Assembly: GCF_000020965.1 (NCBI RefSeq) | Contig: NC_011297.1 | Span: 1,584,525 to 1,648,524, forward strand | DNA: 64,000 bases | Source of the DNA: Dictyoglomus thermophilum H-6-12 | Lineage (GTDB): Bacteria > Dictyoglomota > Dictyoglomia > Dictyoglomales > Dictyoglomaceae | Direction of reading: 5' to 3' | Shown here: positions 6,125 to 22,596 of the stretch, piece by piece | Position numbering within the stretch: the stretch's first letter is position 1 | Layout: each line of letters opens with the position of its first letter | The notes under the pieces: generated by a model | What the model saw: the letters and a program-made list of their open reading frames with translations, nothing else | Told to the model about the DNA's origin: nothing | Database searches by the model: none | Made by a program: the position numbers and the translations under genes

Positions 6125-7336
6125 ATGTTAGTTTGGGACAGTAGTTATTCAAATCTCATAGAGTATATCAAAAACCAAAAAGAAAAGCCTTTTCTTCTTG
6201 TCGATGAAAATACTTACAAAGTAGCTGGAAGAGAGATTGAAAGCCAATTAAAGAAATTGAATATTGATTATGATTTGCTAATCCTACCTGGAGATGCTCA
6301 TGCCGATGAAAAGCACATATGTAAAGTAATGCTTCACGTAAATAGTAACCACATGATGGTATCTATAGGTTCGGGAAGCTTAACAGATATTGCTAGATTT
6401 ATCTCTTATAAAATGAATCTTAGATTTCTATCGGTACCTACAGCCCCCTCTATGGATGGATACGCCTCTTCAGTAGCCGCTTTAACAATTGATAATATAA
6501 AAACTACAGTTATAGCCAAAACACCAGAAAAAATTTTTGCTCGTATAGATGTAATAAAAGATGCCCCTGAGATACTTAAAAAGGCTGGATTTGGAGATCT
6601 CATAGGGAAATATACCGCTCTTTCCGACTGGAAACTTGCAAATATCCTTACAGATGAACCAATAAACGAAAAAGTATATAACGAAATGTATGAAGCCTGC
6701 GAGAATACTTTAAAAAGCATAAATAAACCTGACTTTGAAAAACTCCTTCTTGAAGCCCTCATAAAATCAGGTGAGTTAATGGCAATTGTAGGTAATTCAA
6801 GACCAGCCTCAGGCGCAGAACACCACATTGCCCATTATTTAGAGTTTTTAGGATATGACATATTTCATGGGATAAAAGTAGGAATATCAACCCTATATGT
6901 GATAAAACTGTATGAAAAACTTTTTGAAATTGATCTTGATAATACTAACCAATACTTAGACTACGAAGTAGATATAGAACCATGGAAAGAGGAGATCAAA
7001 GTAAACTTTCCGCAAATTAGTGAGAGAATAATAAAAGAGAATTTAGAAAGAATGAAAGAATTCAATAATCCATCTTTTAGAAGAGCCTTCTTAGAAAAAA
7101 TCAAGTTAAATAAAAATAAAATATACCTTATTGCAGAAAAGCTTCTCAATAAGAAAGAGGAAATAATAAGGGCATATAATGAATTAGGATTTTCCACAAA
7201 TCCTCAAGACTGGAACATTAAAGAGGAGGACATTAAAAAAGCAATACAATATGCTCTATACATTAGAGATAGATTTACTATTCTTACCCTATATCAATTT
7301 TTAGGTGTTTTAAAAAATTTATCAAATGATGTATAA
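6125..7336 (+). CDS. AraM-type glycerol-1-phosphate dehydrogenase
   Basis: A 403-residue member of the iron-dependent alcohol/glycerol dehydrogenase superfamily, closest in pattern to AraM/EgsA, which interconvert dihydroxyacetone phosphate and sn-glycerol 1-phosphate with NAD(P)H. SIGSGSLTDIARFISYK is the nucleotide-binding motif, SVPTAPSMDGYASSVAAL follows, GFGDLIGKYTALSDW holds a metal-binding Asp, and SGAEHHIAHYLE a metal-binding His. ACAGGAGGA precedes the ATG. In Bacillus subtilis araM belongs to the arabinose operon; here ribulokinase is nearby but on the other strand. In bacteria its product feeds unusual glycerolipids; whether that holds here is unknown. Confidence 0.82.
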   Translation: MLVWDSSYSNLIEYIKNQKEKPFLLVDENTYKVAGREIESQLKKLNIDYDLLILPGDAHADEKHICKVMLHVNSNHMMVSIGSGSLTDIARFISYKMNLRFLSVPTAPSMDGYASSVAALTIDNIKTTVIAKTPEKIFARIDVIKDAPEILKKAGFGDLIGKYTALSDWKLANILTDEPINEKVYNEMYEACENTLKSINKPDFEKLLLEALIKSGELMAIVGNSRPASGAEHHIAHYLEFLGYDIFHGIKVGISTLYVIKLYEKLFEIDLDNTNQYLDYEVDIEPWKEEIKVNFPQISERIIKENLERMKEFNNPSFRRAFLEKIKLNKNKIYLIAEKLLNKKEEIIRAYNELGFSTNPQDWNIKEEDIKKAIQYALYIRDRFTILTLYQFLGVLKNLSNDV

Positions 7337-7355
7337 TATTGTTAAGAAAGTTAAC
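7309..7355 (+). promoter_or_regulatory. Promoter with inverted repeat before the first sensor-GGDEF gene
   Basis: TATAAT lies at 7332-7337 with a weak -35 (TTTAAA, 7309-7314). Directly downstream, GTTAA-N5-TTAAC (7341-7355) is a short perfect inverted repeat at the expected transcription start, a place where a repressor would block. The promoter overlaps the end of the AraM gene. Moderate evidence only. Confidence 0.4.
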
Positions 7356-7375
7356 TTTTAAAGGATGGATATATT

Positions 7376-9532
7376 TTGAGAAAGAAGATCGGAGTCATAA
7401 TAAACTATCTATATGAGGGGTATCAATTAAAGGTATTATCTGGAATACTTAATACAGCCAGAAATTATAATACTGATGTCCTTGTTTTTGTAGGGGGAAA
7501 TTTAAACTCTGATATTGAAAACATACAAAGAAACAAGATATATAAGCTAATTACTTCTAAAAATGTTGATGGCTTAATAATACTTGGATTAGTCTTGGGG
7601 TATAATATACCAAAAGAGAAAATTATTCAATTTTACAAAAACTTTGTTGATATACCCACAGTAAGTATTGGAATTAAGGTTAAAAACTTTCCATCTATAA
7701 TCACCGATAATTCAAAAGGATTTATCAGCTTACTTAATCATCTTGTAAAAGACCACAAATATAAAAACTTTGCCTTTGTCACAGGGCCATTAAATAATGA
7801 TGAGGCAAAAGAAAGATATGAGATCTTTTTAAGAGTAATGGGAGAAAACCATATGGAAGTAAGCTCTGATTATATCTACTATGGAGACTTCTCAAAAATT
7901 TCTGGTATCAATGCAGTTAAAGCCTTTTTAGATGAAAGAAAACTAAAACTACCAGATGTAATAGTTTTTTCTAATGATATAATGGCCATTGGAGGAATAG
8001 AAGAACTTAAAAGAAGGAATATAAAGATCCCGGAAGAGATTGCAATAACAGGCTTTGACAATATTGAAGAATCCTATTCCATAACCCCCTCTCTTACCAC
8101 TGTAGATCAACCCCTTTATAAACTTGGAGAAACAGCATTAGAAACATGTCTCTCATTGACCTTAGGAGAGAAAACAAGAGAAGATGTTATTCTTCCCACA
8201 AAATTAATAATAAGGGAATCTTGTGGACACAAAGAGGGCACCGTCAATATATATTTTCCCGAAAAAGAGAAAGTAAAAAATATTTCAGAGATAAGAAAAC
8301 TAAAGAAAGACTTTCTGGAACTCTTAGAAAAGGATTTGAAAGACAAAAAGAATTATCAGTTACCTTCTGAAATTTATGACTTTTTCTTTACTTCTTTATT
8401 TGAAAATAATCAAGTCTTCTTAAATAAAATTTGTGAATACTTAGAGAAGGAAGAGCCCGAAACCATAGAAGAACTAAAAGAAATCACATCTTCACTTTAT
8501 CTTTTCGTTCAAATATATTTAGAAGAGGATTTAAAGAAAACCGCAGAAAATCTAATCCTAACAGCAGAAAAAATAATAAAAGCCTATTCTGAAAAATTAT
8601 TAAGATATGAGAAATTCAAAATCAATGAAGAAACAGAACTTTTAGGATATGTTGGTTCTGATCTCCTTTCAAGTTTTAGAATGGAGGATATCCTTGAAAG
8701 AATTTCTATAAGGCTTCCAGAATTAAATATCAACACTTTCTATTTGATATCTACCGATGAAAACTTAGAAAAAAGGAAACTTATCTTTGCTCGATTAAAA
8801 GATCGAATCGTACAGGAAGAAATAAGTTTTAACTCTAATGAGATAATACCCCAAAAACTTTACCCAAAGGAAAGAACAACTTTAATAATAAAACCATTAT
8901 ATTTTCAAGAGAGTTTTTTTGGATATATAGTATTTGAATACGGTCCTAAAAGAGGAGTAATATATGAGATTCTAAGATCCCAAATCAGCGCAGCTATACA
9001 AGGTGCAAAACTTTTTGAAGAATTAAATCAGTTAGCCATTACTGATCCTCTGACTAAGCTTCCCAATAGAAGGTATATAGAAGCAGAATTTCAAAAAGAG
9101 ATAGAAAGATCTAAGAGATATTCAAGCCCCTTATCGGTTATGGTACTCGATCTTGACAATTTTAAAATTATAAATGATACCTTTGGACATCAGTATGGAG
9201 ATGGGGTATTAAAGAAAATTGCAGAAAACCTCAGAAAATATTGTAGAAAAGTGGACATTGTAGGCAGATTTGGAGGAGATGAGTTTGTAATAATCTTACC
9301 AGAAACAAATCTTGAAAAAAGTATAAAAGTTGCAGATAAGATAATAAAAAATCTTGAGAAAATGAATATAACTCTCCCTAATGGTGAGAAAGTATATATA
9401 AGTGTAAGCATTGGCATAGCCTCATATCCTGAGACCACTAAAGATCCAGAAAAGCTTTTAAGCCTTGCTGACATAGCAATGTATAATGCCAAAAAATTAG
9501 GAGGTAAGCAGTACTCTGTCGCAAGCTTTTAG
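7376..9532 (+). CDS. Sugar-binding (LacI-type) sensor fused to GGDEF diguanylate cyclase
   Basis: A 718-residue soluble protein. Residues about 1-280 are a periplasmic-binding-protein-like domain of the LacI/GalR type (VDGLIILG, FVTGP, PDVIVFSNDIMAIGGIEELKRR, IPEEIAITGFDNIEES, LTTVDQPLYKLGETAL), but the protein begins directly with MRKKIGVIINYLYEG: there is no helix-turn-helix and no signal peptide or membrane segment. A helical linker and a GAF-like region (about 420-545) follow, then a GGDEF domain with an intact GGDEF at 633-637 and an RxxD inhibitory site (RKVD) five residues before it. It should make c-di-GMP in response to a cytoplasmic ligand. The start is TTG, supported by AAGGATGG upstream. 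The next gene is a paralogue. Confidence 0.85.
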   Translation: MRKKIGVIINYLYEGYQLKVLSGILNTARNYNTDVLVFVGGNLNSDIENIQRNKIYKLITSKNVDGLIILGLVLGYNIPKEKIIQFYKNFVDIPTVSIGIKVKNFPSIITDNSKGFISLLNHLVKDHKYKNFAFVTGPLNNDEAKERYEIFLRVMGENHMEVSSDYIYYGDFSKISGINAVKAFLDERKLKLPDVIVFSNDIMAIGGIEELKRRNIKIPEEIAITGFDNIEESYSITPSLTTVDQPLYKLGETALETCLSLTLGEKTREDVILPTKLIIRESCGHKEGTVNIYFPEKEKVKNISEIRKLKKDFLELLEKDLKDKKNYQLPSEIYDFFFTSLFENNQVFLNKICEYLEKEEPETIEELKEITSSLYLFVQIYLEEDLKKTAENLILTAEKIIKAYSEKLLRYEKFKINEETELLGYVGSDLLSSFRMEDILERISIRLPELNINTFYLISTDENLEKRKLIFARLKDRIVQEEISFNSNEIIPQKLYPKERTTLIIKPLYFQESFFGYIVFEYGPKRGVIYEILRSQISAAIQGAKLFEELNQLAITDPLTKLPNRRYIEAEFQKEIERSKRYSSPLSVMVLDLDNFKIINDTFGHQYGDGVLKKIAENLRKYCRKVDIVGRFGGDEFVIILPETNLEKSIKVADKIIKNLEKMNITLPNGEKVYISVSIGIASYPETTKDPEKLLSLADIAMYNAKKLGGKQYSVASF

Positions 9533-9565
9533 TGTTAAAATTATAAAAATAGGGGGGAGGCAACA

Positions 9566-12500
9566 ATGAGAAGAAACATTGGAATATTCGTAGATAATTT
9601 AAATGTATATCAATGGAATATTTTAAAAGGCATTTTTGCATATGCAGAGAAAAATAACATAAATCTTTACTGTGTTGTAGGAAAACCTCTAAATTCTCCC
9701 TTTGATTATGAAAAAAACGCTAACAAAATTTATTATTTAATATCTAAAAAAGATATAAACGGATTAATAATCTTTACCTCTGCCTTAAGCTCTCATACCC
9801 CAAACGAAGAAATAGTAAGATTTTGCAAACTATTTTCTGAAGAGATACCTATAGTAAGCATTGGTCTACCTTTAGAAAAAGTTCCAAGCTTTTCCGTAGA
9901 CAATATAAAAGGATTTAGAGAACTTCTAACTCACCTTATTGAAGACCATGGTTATACAAAGTTTGCCTTTATAACTGGTCCTATGGACAACATTGAAGCC
10001 AGAATAAGATATAAAGTATTCATGGAAGTTATGTCTAAATACGACATAAAAGTACCCGAAGACCACATATATTATGGAAATTTTCTACATGAAGCTGGAA
10101 AAGAAGCTATAAGAACCTTTTTTGACGAGAGAAAAATAAGACCTGAGATAATTGTTTCATCCAATGACGATATGGCTCTTTCCGCCATTGAAGAATTAAA
10201 GAAAAGAAATTTTCTTATACCAGAAGACATCAAAATCACTGGATTTGATGATGTGGAAGAAGCAAGCTTTATAACTCCACCTCTCACTACTGTGAGACAG
10301 CCCCTATTTGAGATGGGAGAAAAAGCCATAAAAACTCTAATGGAAATAATAGAGGGAAGAGAAGTACAAAATATAGAACCTCTTCCCACAAAATTGATTA
10401 TAAGAGATTCTTGTGGATGTAAGTACTCGGCTTTAGACAGAGCAAAAGTAGAAGTTAAAAAGATAAATCTAAATTTTGGTTTAGAAAAATTAGAAAAGCT
10501 AAAAGAAGAATTTATAAAGGTTGCAAATGAGGTTCCATATGATTTGGAAAAAGATGAAATACTAAACCTTTATGAAAATTTTCTCAAAAGTTTAAAAGAA
10601 AAAGATCCAGAGCCCTTCCTTAACTACCTACAAAAACTTCTCAAGATAAAAGAACTAATTAACCCTCAACTAGGATACTTTCAAGATTACATCTCTATTC
10701 TAAGAAGATTTCTCATATACTATATAGAGAAAGAAGATCTAATCTTTGCGGAAAATCTTTGGCACCAGGCAAGGGTTATGATAAGTGACTATGCGGAAAG
10801 ATCTCAAGGATATCAAAAGGCTCGCTTAGAAGAAGACTTTCAAGAGTTAACAGGATTTGGCATAAACTTAATTTCTTCTTTTGACAAAAGCTCTATTATA
10901 AATTCCCTTAAAGAAAATCTACCAAATCTTGGAATAAAAAGTTTCTACATTATAGAACAAGAAGATTCTCAAAATAAAAAGAATCTACTTTTTGGTCTCT
11001 CAGAAGATAGCGAGTATAAAGATATAGATTTCTCCAATGGACTAATACCCAAAAATGTTCTACCCAAAAGAAGATTTACATATATTGTTGAGCCTCTTTA
11101 CTTCCAAGACACATTCTTTGGTTATGCTCTTTTTGAATTTAGTAATCTTCATAGATTCTTCTATGAAATACTCAGAGCTCAAATAAGTTCAGGAATCCAA
11201 GGGGCAAGATTATTCGAAGAGAGAAAAGAGTATGAAAATCAATTAATAGAACATATTAAAGAGCTATCAATTTTAAACGAAATTGGAAATACCATAACCT
11301 CTTCTATTGAATTAGAACTAATATGGGATCTTGTTTCAAGCAAAATAGCAAACCTTTTTGATTACAATGTCTTTTACTTGATATTATTGGATGAGGAGAA
11401 AAACCTCTTAGATATAAAAGTGAAAAAAGTCAAAAAAGGAAACGGAAAACTTTCAGATTCGGATAAGAAAATAATAATGGACTCTATAAAGAATAATAAG
11501 CCTATATTAAGAAAGGGACAAAAGAAAAACATACTATGTGTTCCCTTAATCACAGGAAGAGGAGTAAAAGGAGCTATTTTCCTTAAGCATGAAAAGGATA
11601 TATATACCGAAAAAACCTTAAATTTGCTAAAAACCATAGCAAATTACATATCCATAGCAATTGAAAATGCCCTTCTTTTTGAAGAGACAAAGAAATTAGC
11701 TACCATTGATCCTCTTACAGGAATTCTAAATAGAAGAGCCTTAGAAGAAGCTTTTAACAAAGATGTAGAAAGAGCCAAAAGATATAATAGACCTCTTTCT
11801 GCTATGGTTATAGATGTGGATGATTTTAAACTATTTAATGATACCTATGGACATCTTTTTGGAGATCAGGTATTAAAAGAACTGGCAAAGACCTTAAGAA
11901 ATTCCTGTAGAAAGACTGACATAGTAGGACGCTACGGTGGAGATGAGTTTTGTATAATCCTACCAGAAACCAATTTACAAGGCGCTACTAAATTTGCAGA
12001 AAGGCTATTAAAAAACATCAGAAATTTAACCGTTGTAACACCTGATAATAACAAAATACCAATAAAAGTAAGTATAGGGGTAGCCTCCTATCCTGATGAC
12101 ACCTACGAACCTGAAAAACTATTAACTCTTGCAGACACCACCATGTACAAAGCCAAAACTTCTGGAGGAGACTCCTTTGCTACTATATCTTATTCCTATA
12201 AGACTCCAATCTCTAAAGAGGCTCCTAATTTTGATGTATTTCTTGGCCTAATAAACGCTATTGATAGTAAAGATAATTACACTTATGTCCACTGTAACGA
12301 TGTGGCAAAGTATGCAAGAAAAATCGGAGAGAAATTAGGACTCTCTAAAGATGATCTTGAGATACTAGAACTTGCAGGAAAACTTCACGATATTGGAAAG
12401 ATAGGAATACCTTCTGAAATACTTAAAAAACCAGGACCATTGACCGAAGAAGAATGGAAAATCATCAAAGAGCATCCCAGATTAGGATACCTTATATTAA

Positions 12501-12787
12501 ATCAACTCCCCAAGATGGAAAAACTACTCCAGGCAATACTCTACCACCATGAAAGATACGATGGAAAAGGATATCCCCAAAGCCTTGAAGGGAAAGAAAT
12601 CCCACTTATTGCAAGAATTTTAGCAGTAGCAGACGCCTACTCTGCAATGAAAACCGATAGACCTTACAGAAAAGGCCTTTCTAAGAAGGAAATTATTAGT
12701 GAGATAAAGAAAAACATGGGTAAGCAGTTTGATCCAGAAATTGCTCAAGCATTCTTGGAACTATTAGAAAAAGGAGAGATTGAATGA
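9566..12787 (+). CDS. LacI-type sensor - GAF - GGDEF - HD-GYP bifunctional c-di-GMP protein
   Basis: A 1073-residue paralogue of the preceding protein with extra domains. Order: LacI-type ligand-binding domain (1-285, no helix-turn-helix), helical linker, GAF-like segment (about 420-555), a second GAF (about 570-700), GGDEF (GGDEF at 791-795, RxxD site RKTD just before), and C-terminal HD-GYP with HD at 941-942 and HHERYDGKGYP at 994-1004. GGDEF makes and HD-GYP degrades c-di-GMP, so this protein could do either depending on its sensory state. All catalytic motifs look intact. GGGGGAGG precedes the ATG, and 33 nt separate it from the first sensor gene, so they form one unit. Confidence 0.87.
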   Translation: MRRNIGIFVDNLNVYQWNILKGIFAYAEKNNINLYCVVGKPLNSPFDYEKNANKIYYLISKKDINGLIIFTSALSSHTPNEEIVRFCKLFSEEIPIVSIGLPLEKVPSFSVDNIKGFRELLTHLIEDHGYTKFAFITGPMDNIEARIRYKVFMEVMSKYDIKVPEDHIYYGNFLHEAGKEAIRTFFDERKIRPEIIVSSNDDMALSAIEELKKRNFLIPEDIKITGFDDVEEASFITPPLTTVRQPLFEMGEKAIKTLMEIIEGREVQNIEPLPTKLIIRDSCGCKYSALDRAKVEVKKINLNFGLEKLEKLKEEFIKVANEVPYDLEKDEILNLYENFLKSLKEKDPEPFLNYLQKLLKIKELINPQLGYFQDYISILRRFLIYYIEKEDLIFAENLWHQARVMISDYAERSQGYQKARLEEDFQELTGFGINLISSFDKSSIINSLKENLPNLGIKSFYIIEQEDSQNKKNLLFGLSEDSEYKDIDFSNGLIPKNVLPKRRFTYIVEPLYFQDTFFGYALFEFSNLHRFFYEILRAQISSGIQGARLFEERKEYENQLIEHIKELSILNEIGNTITSSIELELIWDLVSSKIANLFDYNVFYLILLDEEKNLLDIKVKKVKKGNGKLSDSDKKIIMDSIKNNKPILRKGQKKNILCVPLITGRGVKGAIFLKHEKDIYTEKTLNLLKTIANYISIAIENALLFEETKKLATIDPLTGILNRRALEEAFNKDVERAKRYNRPLSAMVIDVDDFKLFNDTYGHLFGDQVLKELAKTLRNSCRKTDIVGRYGGDEFCIILPETNLQGATKFAERLLKNIRNLTVVTPDNNKIPIKVSIGVASYPDDTYEPEKLLTLADTTMYKAKTSGGDSFATISYSYKTPISKEAPNFDVFLGLINAIDSKDNYTYVHCNDVAKYARKIGEKLGLSKDDLEILELAGKLHDIGKIGIPSEILKKPGPLTEEEWKIIKEHPRLGYLILNQLPKMEKLLQAILYHHERYDGKGYPQSLEGKEIPLIARILAVADAYSAMKTDRPYRKGLSKKEIISEIKKNMGKQFDPEIAQAFLELLEKGEIE

Positions 12788-12793
12788 TATAAT
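12785..12793 (+). promoter_or_regulatory. Extended -10 promoter of the alcohol dehydrogenase gene
   Basis: TGA-TATAAT overlaps the TGA stop codon of the preceding gene. Fourteen nt further on, ATACCTAAAAAG matches most of the inverted-repeat element found upstream of larE and the flavodiiron gene, and runs into the GGAGG ribosome site. No clear -35 box. Confidence 0.45.
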
Positions 12794-12829
12794 TTTTAAA
12801 AAAACATACCTAAAAAGGAGGATTTCCTA

Positions 12830-13987
12830 ATGAGAAATTTTGTATTTCATAATCCAACCAAAATCATCTTTGGTAATGACACAACTAATGAGGTGGGAAA
12901 AGAGGTTAGAAATTATGGAAAGAAAGTACTTCTTATTACAGGACAAGGAAGTATTAAGAGAATAGGCTTATACGATAAAGTGATAAACTTACTAAAAGAG
13001 GAAAATCTTGAAATATATGAACTTTCCGGAGTTAAACCTAATCCCAGAGTAGATCTTGTAAGAGAAGGAATAAAAATAGTAAGAGAGAACCAAATTGATA
13101 TACTACTTGCTGTAGGCGGTGGAAGTGTCATTGACACAGCAAAGGCAATTGCAGCAGGATTAACTTATGATGGAGATGTGTGGGACCTATTTACAAAAAG
13201 AATACCCATAAAACCTACCTTGCCTATTGGAGTTGTATTGACCTTAGCTGCTACAGGCTCAGAAATGAATGGGAATGCTGTCATATCTAATATGGAAACC
13301 CAAGAAAAATTAGCGATCTCAAGTCCTTATTTATACCCTAAATTTTCTATTCTTGACCCCAAAAATACAGTATCCGTTCCTTTAAACCACACTCTTTATG
13401 GAATTGTAGATATTCTATCTCATGTTTTCGAACAATATTTCGATAAAACAGAAGATGCAATACTTCAAGATAGGTTTGCAGAGGCTATAATGAAAACAGT
13501 AATAGAGACAGCCCCTAAGCTCGTAGAAAATCCAGAAGACCTAGAAAGCAGAGCGGTAATACTTTGGTGTGGAACCAATGCTCTTAATGGAATAATAGGT
13601 GTGGGAAAAGAGCAAGATTGGGCTTCTCATGCAATTGAACACGCCATATCTGCCATCTATGATATTCCTCATGGGCTTGGGCTTGCTATAGTATTTCCTC
13701 ATTGGATGAAGTATGTTATAGATGTGATTCCTCATAAATTTGCTAATTTCGCAAGAAATGTATGGAACATTCAAGGAGATGACGATTTTGAAGTAGGATT
13801 AAAAGGTATTGAGAAACTTATAGAGTTCTATGAAAGTTTAGGCATTCCTACTAAACTCTCGAGAATAGGAATAAATAATGAACGTTTAGAGGAAATGGCA
13901 GAAAAAGCTACTGAGTTTGGTCCCATAGGAAATGTAAAAAGGTTAACTAAAGAAGACGTATATAAGATTTTAGAACTTTGTTTATAA
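12830..13987 (+). CDS. Iron-containing alcohol dehydrogenase (butanol dehydrogenase/YqhD-like)
   Basis: A 385-residue group III alcohol dehydrogenase that reduces aldehydes to alcohols with NAD(P)H. GGGSVIDTAKAIAAG (97-111) is the cofactor motif. The metal ligands fall at Asp194, His198, His267 and His281, the same positions as in E. coli YqhD, within GIVDILSHVFEQ and SHAIEHAISAIYDIPHGLGLA. Length is normal for the family. AAGGAGG precedes the ATG. It has its own promoter and is followed by the ilvD promoter, so it is probably monocistronic. A role in disposing of fermentation reductant is likely; the actual aldehyde is unknown. Confidence 0.9.
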   Translation: MRNFVFHNPTKIIFGNDTTNEVGKEVRNYGKKVLLITGQGSIKRIGLYDKVINLLKEENLEIYELSGVKPNPRVDLVREGIKIVRENQIDILLAVGGGSVIDTAKAIAAGLTYDGDVWDLFTKRIPIKPTLPIGVVLTLAATGSEMNGNAVISNMETQEKLAISSPYLYPKFSILDPKNTVSVPLNHTLYGIVDILSHVFEQYFDKTEDAILQDRFAEAIMKTVIETAPKLVENPEDLESRAVILWCGTNALNGIIGVGKEQDWASHAIEHAISAIYDIPHGLGLAIVFPHWMKYVIDVIPHKFANFARNVWNIQGDDDFEVGLKGIEKLIEFYESLGIPTKLSRIGINNERLEEMAEKATEFGPIGNVKRLTKEDVYKILELCL

Positions 13988-13994
13988 AAATCTC

Positions 13995-14025
13995 TTGACA
14001 TAATAATCTTATTGTTGTTAAGATT
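13995..14025 (+). promoter_or_regulatory. ilvD promoter with inverted repeat on the -10 region
   Basis: TTGACA at 13995-14000 is followed after 18 nt by TAAGAT (14019-14024). A perfect inverted repeat AATCTTA-N7-TAAGATT (14005-14011 and 14019-14025) covers the spacer and the -10, a typical repressor position. The -35 is a consensus match; the operator role is inference. Confidence 0.55.
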
Positions 14026-14065
14026 TTGTAAATCTTTCTTTTTTGGGGAAAAGGAGGCTTGTCCT

Positions 14066-15742
14066 ATGCATAGAAGTGACGCTGTAAAAAAAGGAATAGA
14101 AAAAGCTCCTCATAGATCTTTGTTTTATGCTATGGGATATACAAAAGATGAATTAGAAAAACCTCTTATAGGTGTGGTAAATTCTGGAAATGAAATGATA
14201 CCTGGCCATATTCATCTGGATATAATTGCTCAAGCAGTAAAATACGGCATCTTAGAGGCAGGAGGTACCCCATTAGAATTTAGAGTTATAGGAATATGTG
14301 ATGGCATTGCCATGGGACATAAAGGAATGAAGTATTCCCTTGCAAGTAGAGAGCTGATCGCAGATTCTATTGAGGCAATGGTAGAGGCATATCAACTGGA
14401 TGGAATAATACTTATAACTAATTGTGATAAGATTGTACCTGGAATGTTAATGGCTGCAGCAAGACTTAACTTACCGTCCCTTATCCTTAGTGGTGGCCCT
14501 ATGCTTGCAGGAAGATGGAGAGGAAAAGATGTAGATCTAATAAGCGTTTTTGAGGGTATAGGACAGGTAAAAGCAGGAAACTTAAAAGAGGAGGATCTTT
14601 ATGAATTAGAACAATATGCTTGCCCTGGGTGTGGTTCATGTTCAGGAATGTTTACTGCAAACACCATGAACTGTCTCTCAGAAGCTTTAGGAATAGCTTT
14701 ACCTTATAATGGAACATTACCTGCTGCTTATGATGGTATGAGAAAAAGACTTTCAAAAGAAGCAGGAAAAAGAATAGTTCAATTGGTAAAAGATAATATA
14801 AGAGCTCGTGATATTTTAACAAGGACAGCTTTTGAGAATGCCATTGCCGTTGATATGGCCCTTGGAGGCTCAACAAATACTGTTCTCCACCTGCTTGCAA
14901 TTGCAAAAGAGGCAAAAGTAGATTTACCCTTAGATACCTTTCAAAAGATCAATGAAAGGACTCCCAATATATGTAAATTGAGTCCAGCCTCCTCTCAACA
15001 CATTCAAGACCTTCACGAGGCAGGAGGTATACCTGCAGTATTAAAAGAGCTTCTTAAAGGAAACTTGATAGACCCAAATGCTTTAACAGTTTCAGGTAAA
15101 ACCATAGGAGAAATAGCAGAAAGTGCAGTAATAAGAGATAGAAACGTAATAAGACCTTTAGAAGATCCCTATGCTAAGGATGGAGGTCTTGCCATACTAT
15201 ATGGTAATCTTGCTCCTGAAGGTGCTGTAGTTAAAAAATCTGCAGTTTCTCCTAAGATGTTAAAACATGAAGGACCTGCAAGAGTATTTAATAGTGAAGA
15301 GGAAGCTATAAAAGAAATATATTCAGGAAAAATTAAAAAAGGAGATGTGGTGGTAATAAGATACGAAGGCCCTAAAGGTGGACCAGGAATGAGAGAAATG
15401 CTTGGCCCTACCTCTGCCCTTGCTGGAATGGGCCTTGATGAAGATGTAGCACTAATAACTGATGGAAGATTCTCAGGAGGGAGTAGAGGTGCTGCTATCG
15501 GCCATATATCTCCCGAAGCTGCCGAAGGAGGTCCTATAGCTCTTCTAAAAGATGGTGATATCATAGAAATAGATATTCCTAATAGAACTTTAAATGTAAA
15601 ATTAAGCAATGAGGAACTGGAAAAAAGAAAGAAAGATTGGAAACCCATTAAGAGAGAGATCGAATTTAGTTACTTAAGGAGATATGCAGCATTGGTTACA
15701 TCTGCTAGCAAAGGGGCAGTTTTAAAAGATATATATGAATAA
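14066..15742 (+). CDS. ilvD: Dihydroxy-acid dehydratase
   Basis: A 558-residue IlvD, which dehydrates 2,3-dihydroxy-isovalerate and -methylvalerate in valine, leucine and isoleucine synthesis. The Fe-S ligands are seen in [10 protein letters not shown] and [29 protein letters not shown] and [23 protein letters not shown] are family signatures. I choose the ATG at 14066 because AAAGGAGG lies just upstream and the family starts with RSDAVKKG-type sequence; the open frame begins 54 nt earlier inside the promoter region. It leads a run with the MetE-like pair 14 nt downstream. No other branched-chain genes are present. Confidence 0.95.
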
Positions 15743-15756
15743 AAGGAGGGTAAGAG

Positions 15757-16734
15757 ATGATTATAACAGTTGTAGATCATTATCCTAAAATACCTAATCC
15801 ACCTCGAGAACCAAAATTAAGAAAAGCTATTCATGCTTATGATCAGGGCAAAATTACAAAAGAAGAATTAGAAAAAATATTTGATGAGGTAACTCAAGAA
15901 GTTATAGAAGAACAAATCTCTGCTGGTGTGGAACTAATAACCGATGGACAAATAAGGTGGGAAGATGGACAAAGTTACATTGCTAGAAAACTTGAAGGAA
16001 CTCAAATTGGAGGACTTATAAGGTACTTCGATAACAACACTTATTACCGACAGCCTGTAATCGTTGGAGAAATAAAATGGAAAGAACCTATCATTGTAGA
16101 AGATTGGAAAAAAGCCCAAAAATGGGCAGGCAGTATCCCGGTAAAAGCAGTACTCACAGGACCATATACCTTAGGAAGACTTAGCAGAGACGAATATTAT
16201 AAAAATCTTGAAAAACTTGTAAAAGCCTATACTAATGCCCTTATAGAAGAAACAAAACTTCTAGAAGAAAACAAAGTTAAATATCTTCAATTTAATGAAC
16301 CCTCCATACAGTATTATCCTGAGGATATAGATCTACTTATAGAAGTTTATAAAGAAATAAGAAAATACTTCTCGGGAAATTTGGCTATATATACTTATTT
16401 CCATACAGTAATTCCTATTAAAAACAGACTTAAGGATCTTCCTGTAGATACTTTTGGGATTGATTTTGTCTCTAGAAAGGAAAATTTTGAGATAATACAA
16501 GAATTCCCTAAAAATCTTGCCTTAGGTTATGGAATAGTAGATGCAAGAAATACAAAACTTGAAACCCCAGAACAAATTGCAAGTCTTATTAAAAAGGCAT
16601 TAGAATGCATACCTGAAGACAAACTTTTTGTTAATCCCAGTTGTGGCCTTGAATATCTACCTCGAGAAAGGGCTTACGATAAACTAGTAAATCTCGTAAA
16701 AGGAGTAAACTTAGTAAGAGGTGAGAGAAAATGA
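15757..16734 (+). CDS. MetE-like protein with altered zinc ligands
   Basis: A 325-residue protein with the single-barrel fold of cobalamin-independent methionine synthase, collinear over its length with the next gene (AVLTGPYTLGRLSRDEYY, LQFNEPSIQYYPE, VNPSCGLEYLPRERAYDKL). Aligned by eye with that paralogue, the zinc ligands His-x-Cys, Glu and Cys become Tyr214-x-His216, Asp237 and Cys296, so the usual zinc site is not kept. It may be a non-catalytic partner, like the N-terminal barrel of full-length MetE, or act on a different methyl donor. Its stop overlaps the next start by 4 nt (ATGA). AAAGGAGG precedes the ATG. Function is inferred; the relationship to MetE is clear. Confidence 0.75.
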   Translation: MIITVVDHYPKIPNPPREPKLRKAIHAYDQGKITKEELEKIFDEVTQEVIEEQISAGVELITDGQIRWEDGQSYIARKLEGTQIGGLIRYFDNNTYYRQPVIVGEIKWKEPIIVEDWKKAQKWAGSIPVKAVLTGPYTLGRLSRDEYYKNLEKLVKAYTNALIEETKLLEENKVKYLQFNEPSIQYYPEDIDLLIEVYKEIRKYFSGNLAIYTYFHTVIPIKNRLKDLPVDTFGIDFVSRKENFEIIQEFPKNLALGYGIVDARNTKLETPEQIASLIKKALECIPEDKLFVNPSCGLEYLPRERAYDKLVNLVKGVNLVRGERK

Positions 16735-17759
16735 AAGAAATAAAACTTCCCATATTACCCACAACTAGCGTAGGAAGTTTCCCCAAACCAGACTATTTAG
16801 TAAAGGCAAGAAATCAATATGCAAGAGGCTTAATTCCTTATTCTACTCTTCACGAGTTAGAGTTAAAAGCTACAGAAGAAGTTATAAGATTACAAGAAGA
16901 AATAGGAATAGATATATTAGTACATGGAGAAATGGAAAGAGGAGACATGGCAACCTATTTTGCCGAAAACTTAGAAGGATTTACCATAAGTGGCCTTGTA
17001 AGATCCTACGGAAATAGGTATTACAAGAAGCCTATTGTAATAGGAAAGATAAGAAGAACAAAACCTATTACTGTGGATATGTTTAAATATGCCCAAAGTT
17101 TGACGAAAAAGCCTGTAAAAGGAATGTTAACAGGACCTTATACTATAGCAGACTGGTCCTTTAACGAGTATTATGATAACAAGAGAGATTTAGTACTTGA
17201 TCTTGCAGAGGTAATAAATCAAGAAGCATTAGATTTAGAAAAAGCAGGAGCCCTATTCGTACAAATAGATGAACCTGCAGTTCCAACTCATCCAGAAGAG
17301 ATCGAAATAGCAAAAGAGGCTTTCAAAATTACCACAAGAGGTTTAAGAAGTTTTCTTATAACCCACATTTGCTATGGTGACTTTAGACCAATATGGAAAG
17401 AAGTAGTGAACTTCCCTGTCCATCAATTTGATCTTGAATTCACCAATAACGCTGATAAACTATATCCTCTTATAGAGAATGAGGGTTTTCCAAGAGAAAA
17501 GTATATTGCCGTTGGAGTCATCGATGTACACTCCCATAGAATAGAAAGTGTAGATGAGATAAAAGCAAGAATAAAAGAAGCATTAAAACATTTCAATCCA
17601 GAACAAGTATTTATTGATCCTGATTGTGGATTAAAAACAAGAACATGGGAAGAGGCAAAGGCAAAATTGGAAAATATGGTTAAAGCTGTGATGGAAGTAA
17701 GAGAGGAATTGGTAAAACAAGGCTATCCTTCTGAAATTACCATAAAATTAGATTTATGA
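16731..17759 (+). CDS. Core methionine synthase (MetE C-terminal domain type)
   Basis: A 342-residue single-domain protein corresponding to the catalytic C-terminal half of MetE, which moves a methyl group to homocysteine. Zinc ligands His212 and Cys214 (THICYGDF), Glu236 (HQFDLEF) and Cys299 (DPDCGL) show nearly the spacing of E. coli MetE H641, C643, E665, C726. TTSVGSFPKP at the start and GMLTGPYTIADWSF are typical. Stand-alone core enzymes are known in archaea and some anaerobic bacteria, where a methyl-corrinoid rather than folate may be the donor. It is translationally coupled to the altered paralogue before it and overlaps the mannosidase start by 4 nt. Confidence 0.82.
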   Translation: MKEIKLPILPTTSVGSFPKPDYLVKARNQYARGLIPYSTLHELELKATEEVIRLQEEIGIDILVHGEMERGDMATYFAENLEGFTISGLVRSYGNRYYKKPIVIGKIRRTKPITVDMFKYAQSLTKKPVKGMLTGPYTIADWSFNEYYDNKRDLVLDLAEVINQEALDLEKAGALFVQIDEPAVPTHPEEIEIAKEAFKITTRGLRSFLITHICYGDFRPIWKEVVNFPVHQFDLEFTNNADKLYPLIENEGFPREKYIAVGVIDVHSHRIESVDEIKARIKEALKHFNPEQVFIDPDCGLKTRTWEEAKAKLENMVKAVMEVREELVKQGYPSEITIKLDL

Positions 17760-19600
17760 GTGAGAAATATTTATTAGAACAATGGAACTTTTGGTTAGAC
17801 GAAATTTATAGCTACTCTATTATAAAGAAATATATCTTAGATGAATGGGGCTTTACAGATAAAAAAGAAGAAGCTGAAAACCTATCAAACTTAGAAAAAA
17901 TAAAACTTGGGGAGAGATGGAAAAAGGTTTCTCTCCCCGTATATTTCGTAAAAAGATTCAAATTATTAGAAAACTTCAAAAACTATCCCCTTTATATACA
18001 TATAGATGTAGGTGGAGAGGCTTTTTTATTCTTAAATAAAAAGCCTTATGCTGGTATAAATCCCTATCATAAGGATCACAAAATCCCCTATCAAGAAGAC
18101 TATCTTTTTCTTATAGAGGCAGTTCCTAAAGGCCTTTTCGGACAAAATCAGAAAAATCCAATTTTCAAAGAAGCATACATTTACCAAAAAGATGAGGAAT
18201 TATATAGAGCATGGCTCGCCTTCTATCTCATAAGGGAATTTGGCCTCCTCTTAGAAGAGACAAATAAAGAACTCCAGAAGAGAGTCCAAAATATCTTAGA
18301 GGAAACCCTTGGCAAAATTGATTTAATAAGTTCCCATCGGGAATTTATACAAAGAATTCAAAACACAAAATTTACCTTAGACCTTATAAATGGACTTTGG
18401 AGCCAGCCTGAATTTGAAAACATTGAGAAACCCATACCCAACGATTTAAGAGAGTCCATTATTCACTACTCCCAATTAGCATTAAGAATGCTCTCTCATT
18501 TAAAAGAGAAATATCCCAACTTAGGAGAGTTATATGCCATAGGACATGCTCATATAGATTATGCGTGGTTATGGCCAAGAGAGGAGACTATAAGAAAAGC
18601 TCAAAGAACCTTTTCTACTATTCTCAACCTTATGGAGAACTATTCAGATTTTATCTTTCTTCAAAGCAGTGCCCAGATTTACCAAGACATAAAAGAAAAT
18701 AATATTTATCTTTTTGAAAAGATAAAAGAAAGGGTAAAAGAAGGAAGATGGATAATTGAGGGAGGAACATGGGTAGAAAACGACTGTCAACTTCCTTGTG
18801 GAGAATCCTTTGTAAGGCAATTTTTATATGCCCAAAAGTTCTTCGAAAAGGAATTTGGAATAAGATGTAAACTTGCATGGCTTCCCGACACCTTCGGATT
18901 CAATCCTAATCTTCCCCAAATTCTAAAAAAGTCAGGAATTAAATACTTTGCAACCACAAAACTAACTTGGAATGAAACTAATACTTTTCCTTATGATCTC
19001 TTCTTGTGGAAGGGCATAGACGGAACAAAGGTTATAGCTCATATTTTTGGAAAAAACTGTGGTTATAATGGAACCACAGAGATTAAAGAGATTTGGAAGA
19101 CTTTTAATGATTTCCAACAAAAAGACATAATAAGTTCACTTATTTACTCCTATGGTTATGGTGATGGAGGCGGTGGTCCCACCTATGAGATGATTGAAAG
19201 ACTTAATCTTCTTAAAGATTTTCCTTTAATTCCTGAAATTAAAAAAGAAAATCCAATTGACTTCTTAGAAAAAATAAACGAAGAAAAACTTCCATTGTAT
19301 TATGGAGATCTATATTTAGAACTTCATAGAGGAACTTTTACAACCCAAGGGAGAATAAAAAGACTACACAGGATGGCAGAAAATCATTTAATAACCATAG
19401 AAAGTCTAAGTACCATACTTAATATCTTAGAGAATATATCTTATCCTAAGGAAGAAATAGATAAAAATTGGAAAAAACTTCTAAGAAATGAATTTCATGA
19501 CATCCTTCCTGGATCCTCTATAAAAGAGGTCTATGAAGATACTGAAAAAGAAATGAAAGAAATTTTAGATTTTAAGATTAATTTTCCCCTCATCGGCTAA
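17756..19600 (+). CDS. GH38 alpha-mannosidase, N-terminal part (catalytic), cut by a frameshift
   Basis: Residues 1-614 of a family GH38 alpha-mannosidase, which hydrolyses alpha-mannosides with a bound zinc or cobalt ion. GHAHIDYAWLWP gives ligands His266 and Asp268, WLPDTFGFNPNLP gives the nucleophile Asp378, and RNEFHDILPGSSIKEVYED gives His581. The frame ends at TAA 19598-19600 a few residues after a T4C4 run; the missing C-terminal half continues in another frame at once. The ATG overlaps the stop of the methionine synthase gene. The catalytic domain is complete here but the beta-sandwich half is not, so activity depends on whether the frameshift is real or bypassed. Confidence 0.85.
   Translation: MSEKYLLEQWNFWLDEIYSYSIIKKYILDEWGFTDKKEEAENLSNLEKIKLGERWKKVSLPVYFVKRFKLLENFKNYPLYIHIDVGGEAFLFLNKKPYAGINPYHKDHKIPYQEDYLFLIEAVPKGLFGQNQKNPIFKEAYIYQKDEELYRAWLAFYLIREFGLLLEETNKELQKRVQNILEETLGKIDLISSHREFIQRIQNTKFTLDLINGLWSQPEFENIEKPIPNDLRESIIHYSQLALRMLSHLKEKYPNLGELYAIGHAHIDYAWLWPREETIRKAQRTFSTILNLMENYSDFIFLQSSAQIYQDIKENNIYLFEKIKERVKEGRWIIEGGTWVENDCQLPCGESFVRQFLYAQKFFEKEFGIRCKLAWLPDTFGFNPNLPQILKKSGIKYFATTKLTWNETNTFPYDLFLWKGIDGTKVIAHIFGKNCGYNGTTEIKEIWKTFNDFQQKDIISSLIYSYGYGDGGGGPTYEMIERLNLLKDFPLIPEIKKENPIDFLEKINEEKLPLYYGDLYLELHRGTFTTQGRIKRLHRMAENHLITIESLSTILNILENISYPKEEIDKNWKKLLRNEFHDILPGSSIKEVYEDTEKEMKEILDFKINFPLIG
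19584..19590 (+). other. Frameshift point splitting the GH38 gene
   Basis: The first frame reads through TTTTCCCC and ends as FPLIG-stop. Removing one base of the C run gives FPSSAKKDYLLVYNPTSFPQ, which joins the two halves with no gap. This could be a sequencing or assembly error, a true mutation, or a site of ribosomal frameshifting. Confidence 0.7.
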
Positions 19601-19613
19601 AAAGGATTACCTT

Positions 19614-20852
19614 TTGGTATACAATCCAACCTCTTTCCCTCAAGAATTAAAATTTGAACTTGATACTGGTCAAAATCTATCCCTCATATATAAAGACGAA
19701 ATTTTACCTTCCCAGAAAACCTACGATAATAAAATGCTTTTCTATTCAAAAGACATATTAATTGAGCCTTTTAGCTTTATAACTCTCAAAATCTCTAAAG
19801 AGGAAGCAAAGAAAATAGAAACCGATCTTGTTGTTGAGAAAAATTCCCTTGAAAATACCTTTTTAAAAGTAGAAATAAACGAGGATGGAACTATAGACAT
19901 TCTATACAAAGACTTAAACAGAAAAATTTTTAAAGAGAGAGGAAATCAACTCTTCGTATTTCCAGATAGACCAAGATACTGGGAAGCTTGGGATATACCT
20001 TTGAATTACGAAAAATTTGGAAGAGAAATAAAAGACGTGGAGAAAATTGAGGTATTAGAAAAGGGTCCTTTAAGAGCAAGGATAAAAGTAGTAAAAAGAT
20101 ACAAAGATTCAAAAATAGTTCAGCACTATACCCTCTATTCTTACTCAAAGAGATTGGATATTGTAAGTGAAATTGAGTGGTACGAAAGAAGGACCGTGCT
20201 AAGAGCATATTTCCCTATGAATATACTTGCTCCTATTGTGCAGTACGAAATACCTTATGGTATTTACTGGAAACCAGTACATAAAAATACCTCATGGGAA
20301 AAAGCTCAGTTTGAAATTCCAGCCCATAGATTTATTGACCTCTCCCAAGGAGATTTTGGAGTAAGCATACTTAATAATGGAAAATATGGTCATAGCATTG
20401 ATGAAAACACTATAGGAATAACCTTATTGAGATCACCTCTAACCCCTGATTATACTGCAGATGTAGGTATACACACTTTTACATACTCTATTTTACCCCA
20501 TTTAGGCCCCTTAAATGAATCCACCATAAAAGAGGCAGAGGAACTTAATAGACCTCTTTATATTATGAATCTTAATGAATATAAAGGAGAAAAATCCCTT
20601 TTGGGTTGGGATAAAAGGAACGTAATACTTGGAGCACTGAAAAAAGCAGAAGATGAAGAGGGAATAATTTTAAGATTTGTAGAATACTTAGGAAAAGAAG
20701 AAGATGTTAATATAAAATTCAATATCTCAGTTAGAAAGATCTATGAAACAAATTTATTAGAGGATACGGAAAAAGAGATAAGTATTGAAAATTCTAATCT
20801 TAAACTACATATAAGACCTTTTGAAATAAAAACCATTAAAGTAATTTATTGA
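19614..20852 (+). CDS. GH38 alpha-mannosidase, C-terminal part
   Basis: About 412 residues matching the C-terminal beta-sandwich half of GH38 enzymes: LVYNPTSFPQ at its beginning, LKVEINEDGTIDILYKD, GNQLFVFPDRPRYWEAWDI, YEIPYGIYWKPVH and GDFGVSILNNGKYGHSIDENTIGITLLRSP are typical. The frame is open further upstream, to within the end of the first half, so the TTG at 19614 need not be a start; however AAAGGA lies 8 nt before it, so independent re-initiation is possible. Together the two parts give about 1030 residues, the normal size of a bacterial GH38 enzyme. Confidence 0.8.
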   Translation: MVYNPTSFPQELKFELDTGQNLSLIYKDEILPSQKTYDNKMLFYSKDILIEPFSFITLKISKEEAKKIETDLVVEKNSLENTFLKVEINEDGTIDILYKDLNRKIFKERGNQLFVFPDRPRYWEAWDIPLNYEKFGREIKDVEKIEVLEKGPLRARIKVVKRYKDSKIVQHYTLYSYSKRLDIVSEIEWYERRTVLRAYFPMNILAPIVQYEIPYGIYWKPVHKNTSWEKAQFEIPAHRFIDLSQGDFGVSILNNGKYGHSIDENTIGITLLRSPLTPDYTADVGIHTFTYSILPHLGPLNESTIKEAEELNRPLYIMNLNEYKGEKSLLGWDKRNVILGALKKAEDEEGIILRFVEYLGKEEDVNIKFNISVRKIYETNLLEDTEKEISIENSNLKLHIRPFEIKTIKVIY

Positions 20853-20877
20853 ACTACTTAAATTTTTGTGATATAAA
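20849..20877 (+). promoter_or_regulatory. Promoter of the membrane GGDEF gene
   Basis: TTGAAC (20849-20854), 17-nt spacer, TATAAA (20872-20877) with a TGa extension. The -35 overlaps the stop codon of the mannosidase gene. Confidence 0.6.
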
Positions 20878-20916
20878 AATCAAAAAATACCTCTTTGGGT
20901 GAGGGTAAGACCAATA

Positions 20917-22596
20917 ATGAAAATTAAGAACAAGATATTTCTCTACTATATATGCATATCATTGATATTTTTCACCTTCTTAGAAATTATTTTTGTAAAT
21001 GTCATAAAGAACGAATATCTTAGAAATTTTAAAGCCGAAATCCAAAATTACGTCAACCTATGCCTGAATTCCATCTCTGAAAAAAGCAAATTAATAATAG
21101 ACTTTGAAAACCCTCAAAATTTTATATCAAAAATAGAAAGTAAAATAAAGGGAAATCAAATACTTAAAGATCTTAAAGTTGGAGGCATAATTATCCAAAG
21201 TAATAACACATATAGTATAATCCCCACAATAGATTATGAAGCCCTTCCTGAAAATCTTCTCACAGAAAAGGATCTTTATTACAAAGACAACTATTTTTAT
21301 GTTTATCCTTTAACAAAAAATTCCTCTAACTCTACAGAATTAATATTTATTTATAATGCAAAAGAATTAAGAAATAAAATCGTAACTTCTGCTATCTCCT
21401 TTTCTCTACCTCTTCTTGCTCTCCAAGTATTCTTTACCATACTTTTTTACTACTCCATGAAGTACACCTATGTAAAACCCCTTGAAAAATTAGCTGAAAA
21501 CTTAACTTTAGAAAATGTCTCAATGAATATAGAAAGTCACGAGATAAATAGAAAGGATGAGATTGGAACCCTTACCAGAAAGATTATTGACTTTGAAAAA
21601 TCTATGAAAAACATAATAAGTTCTTATGAAAAAATTCTCCAACAAAAAGGAACTAACTTAAGCATACTTCTTCAATGTATTTCAGAATTTAATATGGCTA
21701 AAAAACCTGTAGACGTAGCAAAAGTAATAGCCAAACTTTGTAATGGAAACTTTCCCATAAAAATTTATGATGTTTATATCGTAAACCCTATAGAAAAAGA
21801 GGAGTTTTATCAAAATTTACAAATAATCAATAGAGAAGAAGCAAAAGAAATTTTAGACATGTTAAACTTCAATCCCAATAATAATTTCTATACCTCAAAA
21901 GACATAAAACTTTTTGCCTACAATGTTCCTGAAGATTATATCCTCATTCCACTAAGGAGAAATGAAAAATTATATGGGTTTATAGCAACGTCAACTCCTA
22001 CTTCTAATGATCTACAAGATACTACTCTTTCAATCCTATATCATCTTACTGTATCCCTTGAAAACTCCTTTCTCTACGAACATACTGAAAAGCTGTCTTA
22101 CGTTGATCCACTCACAGGGGTATATAATAAGAGAAAAATCGACGAAATCTTAGAAAACGAGGTAAACAGAGCCTTAAGGTATAACCGACCTTTAAGCTTG
22201 ATATTCATAGATATCGATCACTTCAAGAATATAAATGATACTTACGGACACATTATAGGAGACAGTTTTTTGAAGGAATTGGCTCTTTTTTTACTACGTA
22301 ATACAAGAAATATCGATACCATAGGAAGATTTGGAGGGGAAGAATTTGTATGTATCCTGCCTGAAACCGACCTAGAATCGGCTTATAAAGTAGGGGAAAA
22401 ATTAAGAGTCAGATGGAATATAGAAAGGCACATAATTCCTATTAAAATTGATGAAAAAATAGGGACTTTGAGTATGGGGATATCAAATCTTCCTACCCAC
22501 TCTAAGAATGCCAGGGAACTGTTAATATTAGCAGACAATGCCCTTTATAAAGCTAAAAAAGAAAGAAATAAAACCTTAATCGTGGGAAATTCTTAA
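20917..22596 (+). CDS. Membrane-bound GGDEF diguanylate cyclase
   Basis: A 559-residue protein: transmembrane helix at about 6-24, an extracytoplasmic segment of some 125 residues, a second helix (ISFSLPLLALQVFFTILFYY, about 160-180), a HAMP-like stretch, a GAF-like region, and a C-terminal GGDEF domain with GGEEF at 473-477 and an RxxD site (RNID) five residues before it. It should synthesise c-di-GMP in response to an external signal and be feedback inhibited. I choose the ATG at 20917 because GAGGG lies 10 nt upstream; a GTG 18 nt earlier is also in frame. Its last 21 nt overlap the convergent AlaX gene. Confidence 0.85.
   Translation: MKIKNKIFLYYICISLIFFTFLEIIFVNVIKNEYLRNFKAEIQNYVNLCLNSISEKSKLIIDFENPQNFISKIESKIKGNQILKDLKVGGIIIQSNNTYSIIPTIDYEALPENLLTEKDLYYKDNYFYVYPLTKNSSNSTELIFIYNAKELRNKIVTSAISFSLPLLALQVFFTILFYYSMKYTYVKPLEKLAENLTLENVSMNIESHEINRKDEIGTLTRKIIDFEKSMKNIISSYEKILQQKGTNLSILLQCISEFNMAKKPVDVAKVIAKLCNGNFPIKIYDVYIVNPIEKEEFYQNLQIINREEAKEILDMLNFNPNNNFYTSKDIKLFAYNVPEDYILIPLRRNEKLYGFIATSTPTSNDLQDTTLSILYHLTVSLENSFLYEHTEKLSYVDPLTGVYNKRKIDEILENEVNRALRYNRPLSLIFIDIDHFKNINDTYGHIIGDSFLKELALFLLRNTRNIDTIGRFGGEEFVCILPETDLESAYKVGEKLRVRWNIERHIIPIKIDEKIGTLSMGISNLPTHSKNARELLILADNALYKAKKERNKTLIVGNS

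Follow-up and report, generated by a model that had tools for sequence, protein, structure and literature searches.

LacI/GalR-type transcription factors, such as RbsR, CcpA, PurR and LacI, share their fold, conserved arginine and aspartate positions and cytoplasmic location with two proteins, here termed P1 and P2, that are encoded next to each other in the genome of Dictyoglomus thermophilum H-6-12 (21-28% identity in Foldseek alignments). P1 and P2 differ from these factors in that they have neither a helix-turn-helix (HTH) nor a hinge helix, and in that their output is a c-di-GMP enzyme. The fusion of a LacI-type domain to a c-di-GMP enzyme is in itself already known: the relevant part of a 2022 review names periplasmic-binding-protein-like domains, in fusions of the same kind as P1 and P2, among the c-di-GMP sensor domains without a validated role (PMC8846402). 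That part of the review gives such fusions one sentence, which mentions neither a helical plus GAF-like part nor a cassette with multiple outputs (PMC8846402). RmcA of Pseudomonas aeruginosa, with an SBP_bac_3 input for L-arginine, resembles P1 and P2 in that a clam-shell ligand-binding domain controls c-di-GMP turnover; however, SBP_bac_3 is another family than the LacI type, and the same part of the review calls such domains periplasmic (PMC8846402). P1 and P2 also differ from membrane-anchored sensors of the RmcA kind in having no signal peptide or transmembrane helix. A connection between LacI-type regulation, a c-di-GMP enzyme and sugar use is likewise seen in Actinoplanes, with AmlR and ACSP50_2473, but there it runs through transcription between two separate proteins, and the GGDEF-EAL enzyme is anchored in the membrane (PMC6828939).

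The window analyzed here is a stretch of 64,000 nt of the D. thermophilum genome. P1 (7376-9532, forward strand; 718 aa) has a TTG start preceded by GGATGG, and P2 (9566-12787, forward strand; 1073 aa) starts with ATG. P1 comprises, as delimited by Pfam and an AlphaFold2 model, a LacI/GalR-type ligand-binding domain ending in a conserved RESCG motif (7376-8227; residues 1-284; Peripla_BP_3, 9e-25; Peripla_BP_1, 1e-13, residues 3-280), a helical segment that closes with a long helix at residues 384-431 (8282-8668; residues 303-431), a divergent GAF-like domain (8681-9022; residues 436-549) and a GGDEF domain (9035-9508; residues 554-711; 1.5e-51). P2 contains the corresponding LacI/GalR-type domain (9566-10417; residues 1-284; Peripla_BP_3, 1.4e-26, with Peripla_BP_1 also matched), a helical segment (10418-10861; residues 285-432) placed by alignment to P1, a divergent GAF-like domain (10862-11224; residues 433-553) recognized by the same alignment and by our own profile (2e-56), a second GAF domain (GAF_3; 11315-11668; residues 584-701; 3.5e-10), a GGDEF domain (11699-12169; residues 712-868; 3e-49) and an HD-GYP domain (12251-12742; residues 896-1059; HD_5, 1.2e-40). 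In both proteins an RxxD I-site lies five residues before the GGDEF motif (P1: RKVD, 624-627, and GGDEF, 633-637; P2: RKTD, 782-785, and GGDEF, 791-795), and the HD-GYP motifs of P2 are complete (HDIGKIGIP, 941-949; HHERYDGKGYP, 994-1004). The motifs for synthesis, feedback and breakdown are intact, as the sequence-only reading had it, and P1 is predicted to be a diguanylate cyclase and P2 a cyclase plus phosphodiesterase.

Between the LacI-type and GGDEF domains of P1, approximately 270 residues are without a Pfam match above cut-off. An AlphaFold2 model of residues 1-550 (mean pLDDT 86.7) comprises the LacI-type domain, the helical segment and an alpha/beta domain at 436-549. Among PDB structures, Foldseek matched this model to LacI, CcpA, PurR and RbsR (best E-value 5e-19); by sequence, P1 matched an ancestral LacI in the PDB (1e-24), with CcpA among the best matches and PurR also matched, and P2 matched the ancestral LacI (1e-32) and RbsR (2.5e-30). 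When the middle region of P1 was modeled separately, GAF structures headed the Foldseek list (E-value about 1e-3, probability 1.00). Pfam gave no GAF match over cut-off for residues 436-549, and the domain, very divergent in sequence, is referred to as GAF-like on the strength of the model. Pfam, AlphaFold2 and Foldseek are in accord on the LacI-type fold, and the initial description of two adjacent paralogues with a LacI/GalR-like N-terminus and a GGDEF or GGDEF plus HD-GYP end holds; the helical segment, the GAF-like domain that Pfam does not see, and GAF_3 of P2 were absent from it.

The LacI-type domain begins at residue 3 of P1, where the N-terminal HTH of a LacI/GalR transcription factor is missing, and the open frame gains just seven codons upstream of the start (725 versus 718 aa), which rules out a hidden HTH in P1. 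No signal peptide or membrane helix is apparent from the hydropathy of either protein, the highest 19-residue Kyte-Doolittle means being 1.37 (P1) and 1.32 (P2), compared with 2.54 for a membrane GGDEF protein encoded from position 20899. P1 and P2 are predicted from these data to be soluble and cytoplasmic, as had been proposed. A missed HTH, an export signal and a lack of profile support for the LacI fold had been named beforehand as findings that would speak against the proposal, and none of the three was found.

Among 67 aligned LacI domains of this type, including those of P1 and P2, R147 (P1 numbering) is invariant (67/67), D201, the aspartate of an ND motif, is retained in 65, and the position of D228 is occupied by D in 42 and by N in 24. 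The residue of the RbsR chain aligned with R147 is R195, which we take to be equivalent to the ligand contacts R197 of LacI and R196 of PurR, and the D228 site is presumably that of D274 in LacI, by our own assignment. P1 and P2 possess, like the LacI/GalR transcription factors, a ligand domain of the type I periplasmic-binding-protein-like kind in which the contact residues are conserved. At the junction, each of the three SCG positions (282-284) is conserved in no fewer than 65 of the 67 domains, and SCG is a signature of the LacI/GAF-like cassette; RES-like endings similar to this junction also occur in LacI repressors.

These residues bear on the possibility that the LacI-type domain does not sense any small molecule and serves the GGDEF enzymes solely as a platform for dimerization or for the docking of a protein. 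The model would be CcpA, which is controlled by HPr-Ser-P and to which P1 shows one of its closest sequence matches. The conservation of the ligand-contact arginine and of the ND-motif aspartate speaks against such a platform, as does the fact that RbsR and the ancestral LacI, both solved with sugars, outscore CcpA for P2, and we regard it as improbable.

P1 and P2 lie in a run of ten co-oriented ORFs (6125-22596) in which no gap exceeds 46 bp. The run begins with an Fe-ADH_2 protein resembling glycerol-1-phosphate dehydrogenase (6125-7336), followed by P1, P2, an iron-containing alcohol dehydrogenase (Fe-ADH; 12830-13987), an IlvD/EDD-family dehydratase (14012-15742), two genes resembling MetE, the cobalamin-independent methionine synthase (15757-17759), a GH38 alpha-mannosidase in two frames (17756-20852) and, as the last gene, a third GGDEF protein (20899-22596), all on the forward strand. 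A GH4 gene and a ribulokinase-like FGGY kinase gene are located nearby on the opposite strand. The run is an operon-like, conserved set of carbohydrate and other metabolic genes. In D. turgidum, the genes for the ribulokinase, GH4 and GH38 are Dtur_1748, 1749 and 1758, a numbering that fits the gene order in the window (PMC5167688). One GH38 gene is listed for D. turgidum, compared with the two frames in the window; the split lies at a junction near 19600, which a single uninterrupted frame spans in G006, a genome of the sister genus, and represents a sequencing error or a true frameshift. The third GGDEF protein is membrane-anchored by its hydrophobicity and, by our own profiles, is not a LacI cassette protein; as it is encoded on the same strand, with no intervening gap above 46 bp, it is probably part of the same transcription unit as P1 and P2. 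The sugar-gene surroundings and the nearby membrane-bound GGDEF protein had both been pointed out at the outset, and both are borne out. A search of the whole window with Rfam gave no match, hence no c-di-GMP riboswitch of the Rfam families searched, and scans for promoters and terminators gave results at chance level only.

The ligand is most likely a sugar or sugar-derived. The IlvD- and MetE-like genes mean that a purely sugar-related role of the run is not implied, and they could be taken to suggest that the LacI domain senses something else, i.e. a nucleobase as in PurR, an amino-acid-related compound or a C1 compound; PurR is among the matches, and those of the spirochete cassette genes described below whose neighborhoods were viewed are, on inspection only, not obviously near sugar genes. 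Such a non-sugar ligand appears rather unlikely to us, given the GH38, GH4, ribulokinase-like kinase and two Fe-ADH-family genes around P1 and P2, and the retention of part of this carbohydrate context in the sister genus.

The tandem of P1 and P2 is kept in two further genomes, G001 (77% identity for P1 and 83% for P2) and G002 (first gene cut by a contig end). In the sister genus, G006 carries two cassette genes, of which one lies between Fe-ADH_2 and Fe-ADH and the other at a different site; in G005, cassette sequence is present on three contigs and is truncated by the contig end on two of these; and in G004 a LacI-GGDEF gene is followed directly by a separate HD-GYP gene. At this G004 locus (L029, 9959-12688), the HD-GYP gene encodes 173 aa that are 74% identical to the HD-GYP domain of P2, so that the P2 fusion is present there as two genes. 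P1 and P2 themselves are 47% identical in the LacI domain, 24% in the helical segment, 41% in the GAF-like domain and 57% in the GGDEF domain, i.e. the inputs are more divergent than the outputs, and in trees of the LacI domain the P1 and P2 types separate across both Dictyoglomota genera. The G006 protein at the conserved locus (L033, 1333-4563) combines a P1-type LacI domain with P2-type GAF, GGDEF and HD-GYP outputs: a grouping with P2 is rejected for the LacI data (p = 0.001), and a grouping with P1 is not rejected for the GGDEF data (AU p = 0.38). A domain swap, or loss of HD-GYP in P1 with differential loss, may equally account for this protein.

P1 and P2 might also function as a pair, possibly as a heterodimer through the LacI cores, with P1 as the synthase and P2 mainly as a phosphodiesterase, and with the ligand setting the balance. 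This proposal concerns the cooperation of the two proteins and is compatible with each being a sensor-enzyme. The conserved tandem, the HD-GYP gene adjoining the LacI-GGDEF gene in G004, and the union of P1-type and P2-type parts in one G006 protein are in line with it; the LacI domains, however, are divergent and each may homodimerize, a single gene is found at the G006 locus, and the G006 pattern is also explicable by HD-GYP loss in P1, so that we hold cooperation as a pair to be a tentative possibility.

The GAF-like domain was also used to trace the cassette in other genomes, with a profile built from two phyla. In two broad samples of 386 and 384 genomes, the true matches outside Dictyoglomota were confined to G309, a spirochete, and G657. 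None was obtained from a third sample, of 395 genomes; with a profile based on two phyla, failure to find the cassette in other lineages is weak evidence of its absence there. Weak matches in G089 and G289 lack a LacI domain and resemble ordinary GAF-containing proteins. A histidine kinase of the GAF/PAS kind accounts for the weak match in G142, and a frame of 170 aa, likewise lacking LacI, for that in G017. The three loci returned by a scan of GTDB contigs with a single protein were all without a LacI domain by our own profiles. When 120 genomes of the phylum containing G309 were searched, 13 were positive. The flagellar protein FlaA (PF04620), which we take to be a marker of spirochetes, was detected in all 13 positive genomes, in none of 14 controls, and not in G657, G034 and G029, and the phylum of G309 is accordingly taken as Spirochaetota.

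In the frames read from these genomes, the LacI and GAF-like domains occur together in 65 open frames, and the lone frame without LacI is cut off by the end of its stretch; two of the 65 represent the same protein read twice, which leaves about 64 spirochete proteins. Outputs were assigned by our own profiles, with Pfam additionally run on 26 proteins, the remainder being shortened or unassigned. Seven output types were found behind the LacI, helical and GAF-like parts in Spirochaetota: histidine kinase (16, with a receiver domain found in 10), LuxR (11), MCP (9), GGDEF (8), AraC (7), HD-GYP (3) and SpoIIE (at least 4). The SpoIIE-type phosphatase domains are joined to the cassette at L092, L103, L106 and L112. 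One spirochete, G436, has 23 GAF-like matches (its loci are among L055, L067, L076 and L083-L112), and the outputs read there include kinase, MCP, AraC, HD-GYP and SpoIIE. At L142 (5809-8268) a protein with LacI, GAF-like and MCP parts adjoins what by eye appears to be an ABC transporter of the branched-chain-amino-acid type. Apparent N-terminal hydrophobic runs at L086 and L091 precede the likely start methionine. G657, without FlaA, encodes two cassette histidine kinases (L145, L146) and is probably a third lineage carrying the cassette.

The occurrence of the same block with seven output types in Spirochaetota is the pattern expected of an input module: LacI, helical and GAF-like parts behave as one self-contained input unit, and the outputs vary. 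We lean towards the view that the cassette is a cytoplasmic sensing unit that can be transplanted between proteins, has not been described before and is shared by Dictyoglomota, Spirochaetota and one or more further lineages (G657), with at least seven output classes. The sequence-only reading had seen a distinctive design against a background of LacI-type domains with mostly transcriptional output; the latter stands for characterized cases, but the design is less isolated and more general than supposed, since the review lists such domains (PMC8846402) and kinases, chemoreceptors, HD-GYP proteins and SpoIIE proteins have the cassette as their input as well.

Taken from the architecture, motifs, fold, conservation, gene context and re-use of the cassette observed here, P1 and P2 are probably cytoplasmic one-component sensor-enzymes, in which a metabolite in the LacI cleft acts through a helical and GAF-like relay on a c-di-GMP enzyme. 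On the class of the ligand, dimerization, the route of allostery, the sign of its effect and the net activity of P2, we infer the following: the metabolite bound in the cleft would be small, most likely a sugar or a derivative of one released in polysaccharide breakdown, and the LacI-type domains would be dimeric as in the repressors; closure of the lobes would be relayed via the helical segment and the GAF-like domain (in P2 also via the second GAF) to the C-terminal enzyme; and P1 would make c-di-GMP, and P2 would be able to make it and break it down, perhaps switching between the two. Evolution would have attached the same block to many outputs. Two observations count against P1 and P2 as sensor-enzymes with a clear c-di-GMP output: Pfam detects no PilZ domain, as a c-di-GMP target, in the genome, and D. 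thermophilum is nonmotile (PMC3931368). The genome has three MshEN matches in two frames (L135-L137), and these proteins are possible candidate c-di-GMP receptors; the multicellular spherical bodies that the organism forms (PMC3931368) are another possible, putative target.

A search of open-licence papers on LacI-type inputs fused to GGDEF proteins, kinases and chemoreceptors did not find the cassette, which, with its cryptic GAF-like domain and seven outputs, appears to be new within this literature. Little is known of the sugar inputs of c-di-GMP networks, and proteins of the P1/P2 type, soluble and with a LacI-type input and intact motifs, lend themselves to testing whether a metabolite controls c-di-GMP directly; they are probably stable, as they originate from an extreme thermophile. 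If the cassette is what we propose, an intracellular metabolite could act through it on transcription or on kinases, chemoreceptors, c-di-GMP enzymes or SpoIIE phosphatases. If it is truly interchangeable, one type of sensor would link intracellular metabolites to chemotaxis, two-component signaling, c-di-GMP and transcription, and its many versions would provide a natural series in which to follow the rewiring of LacI allostery.
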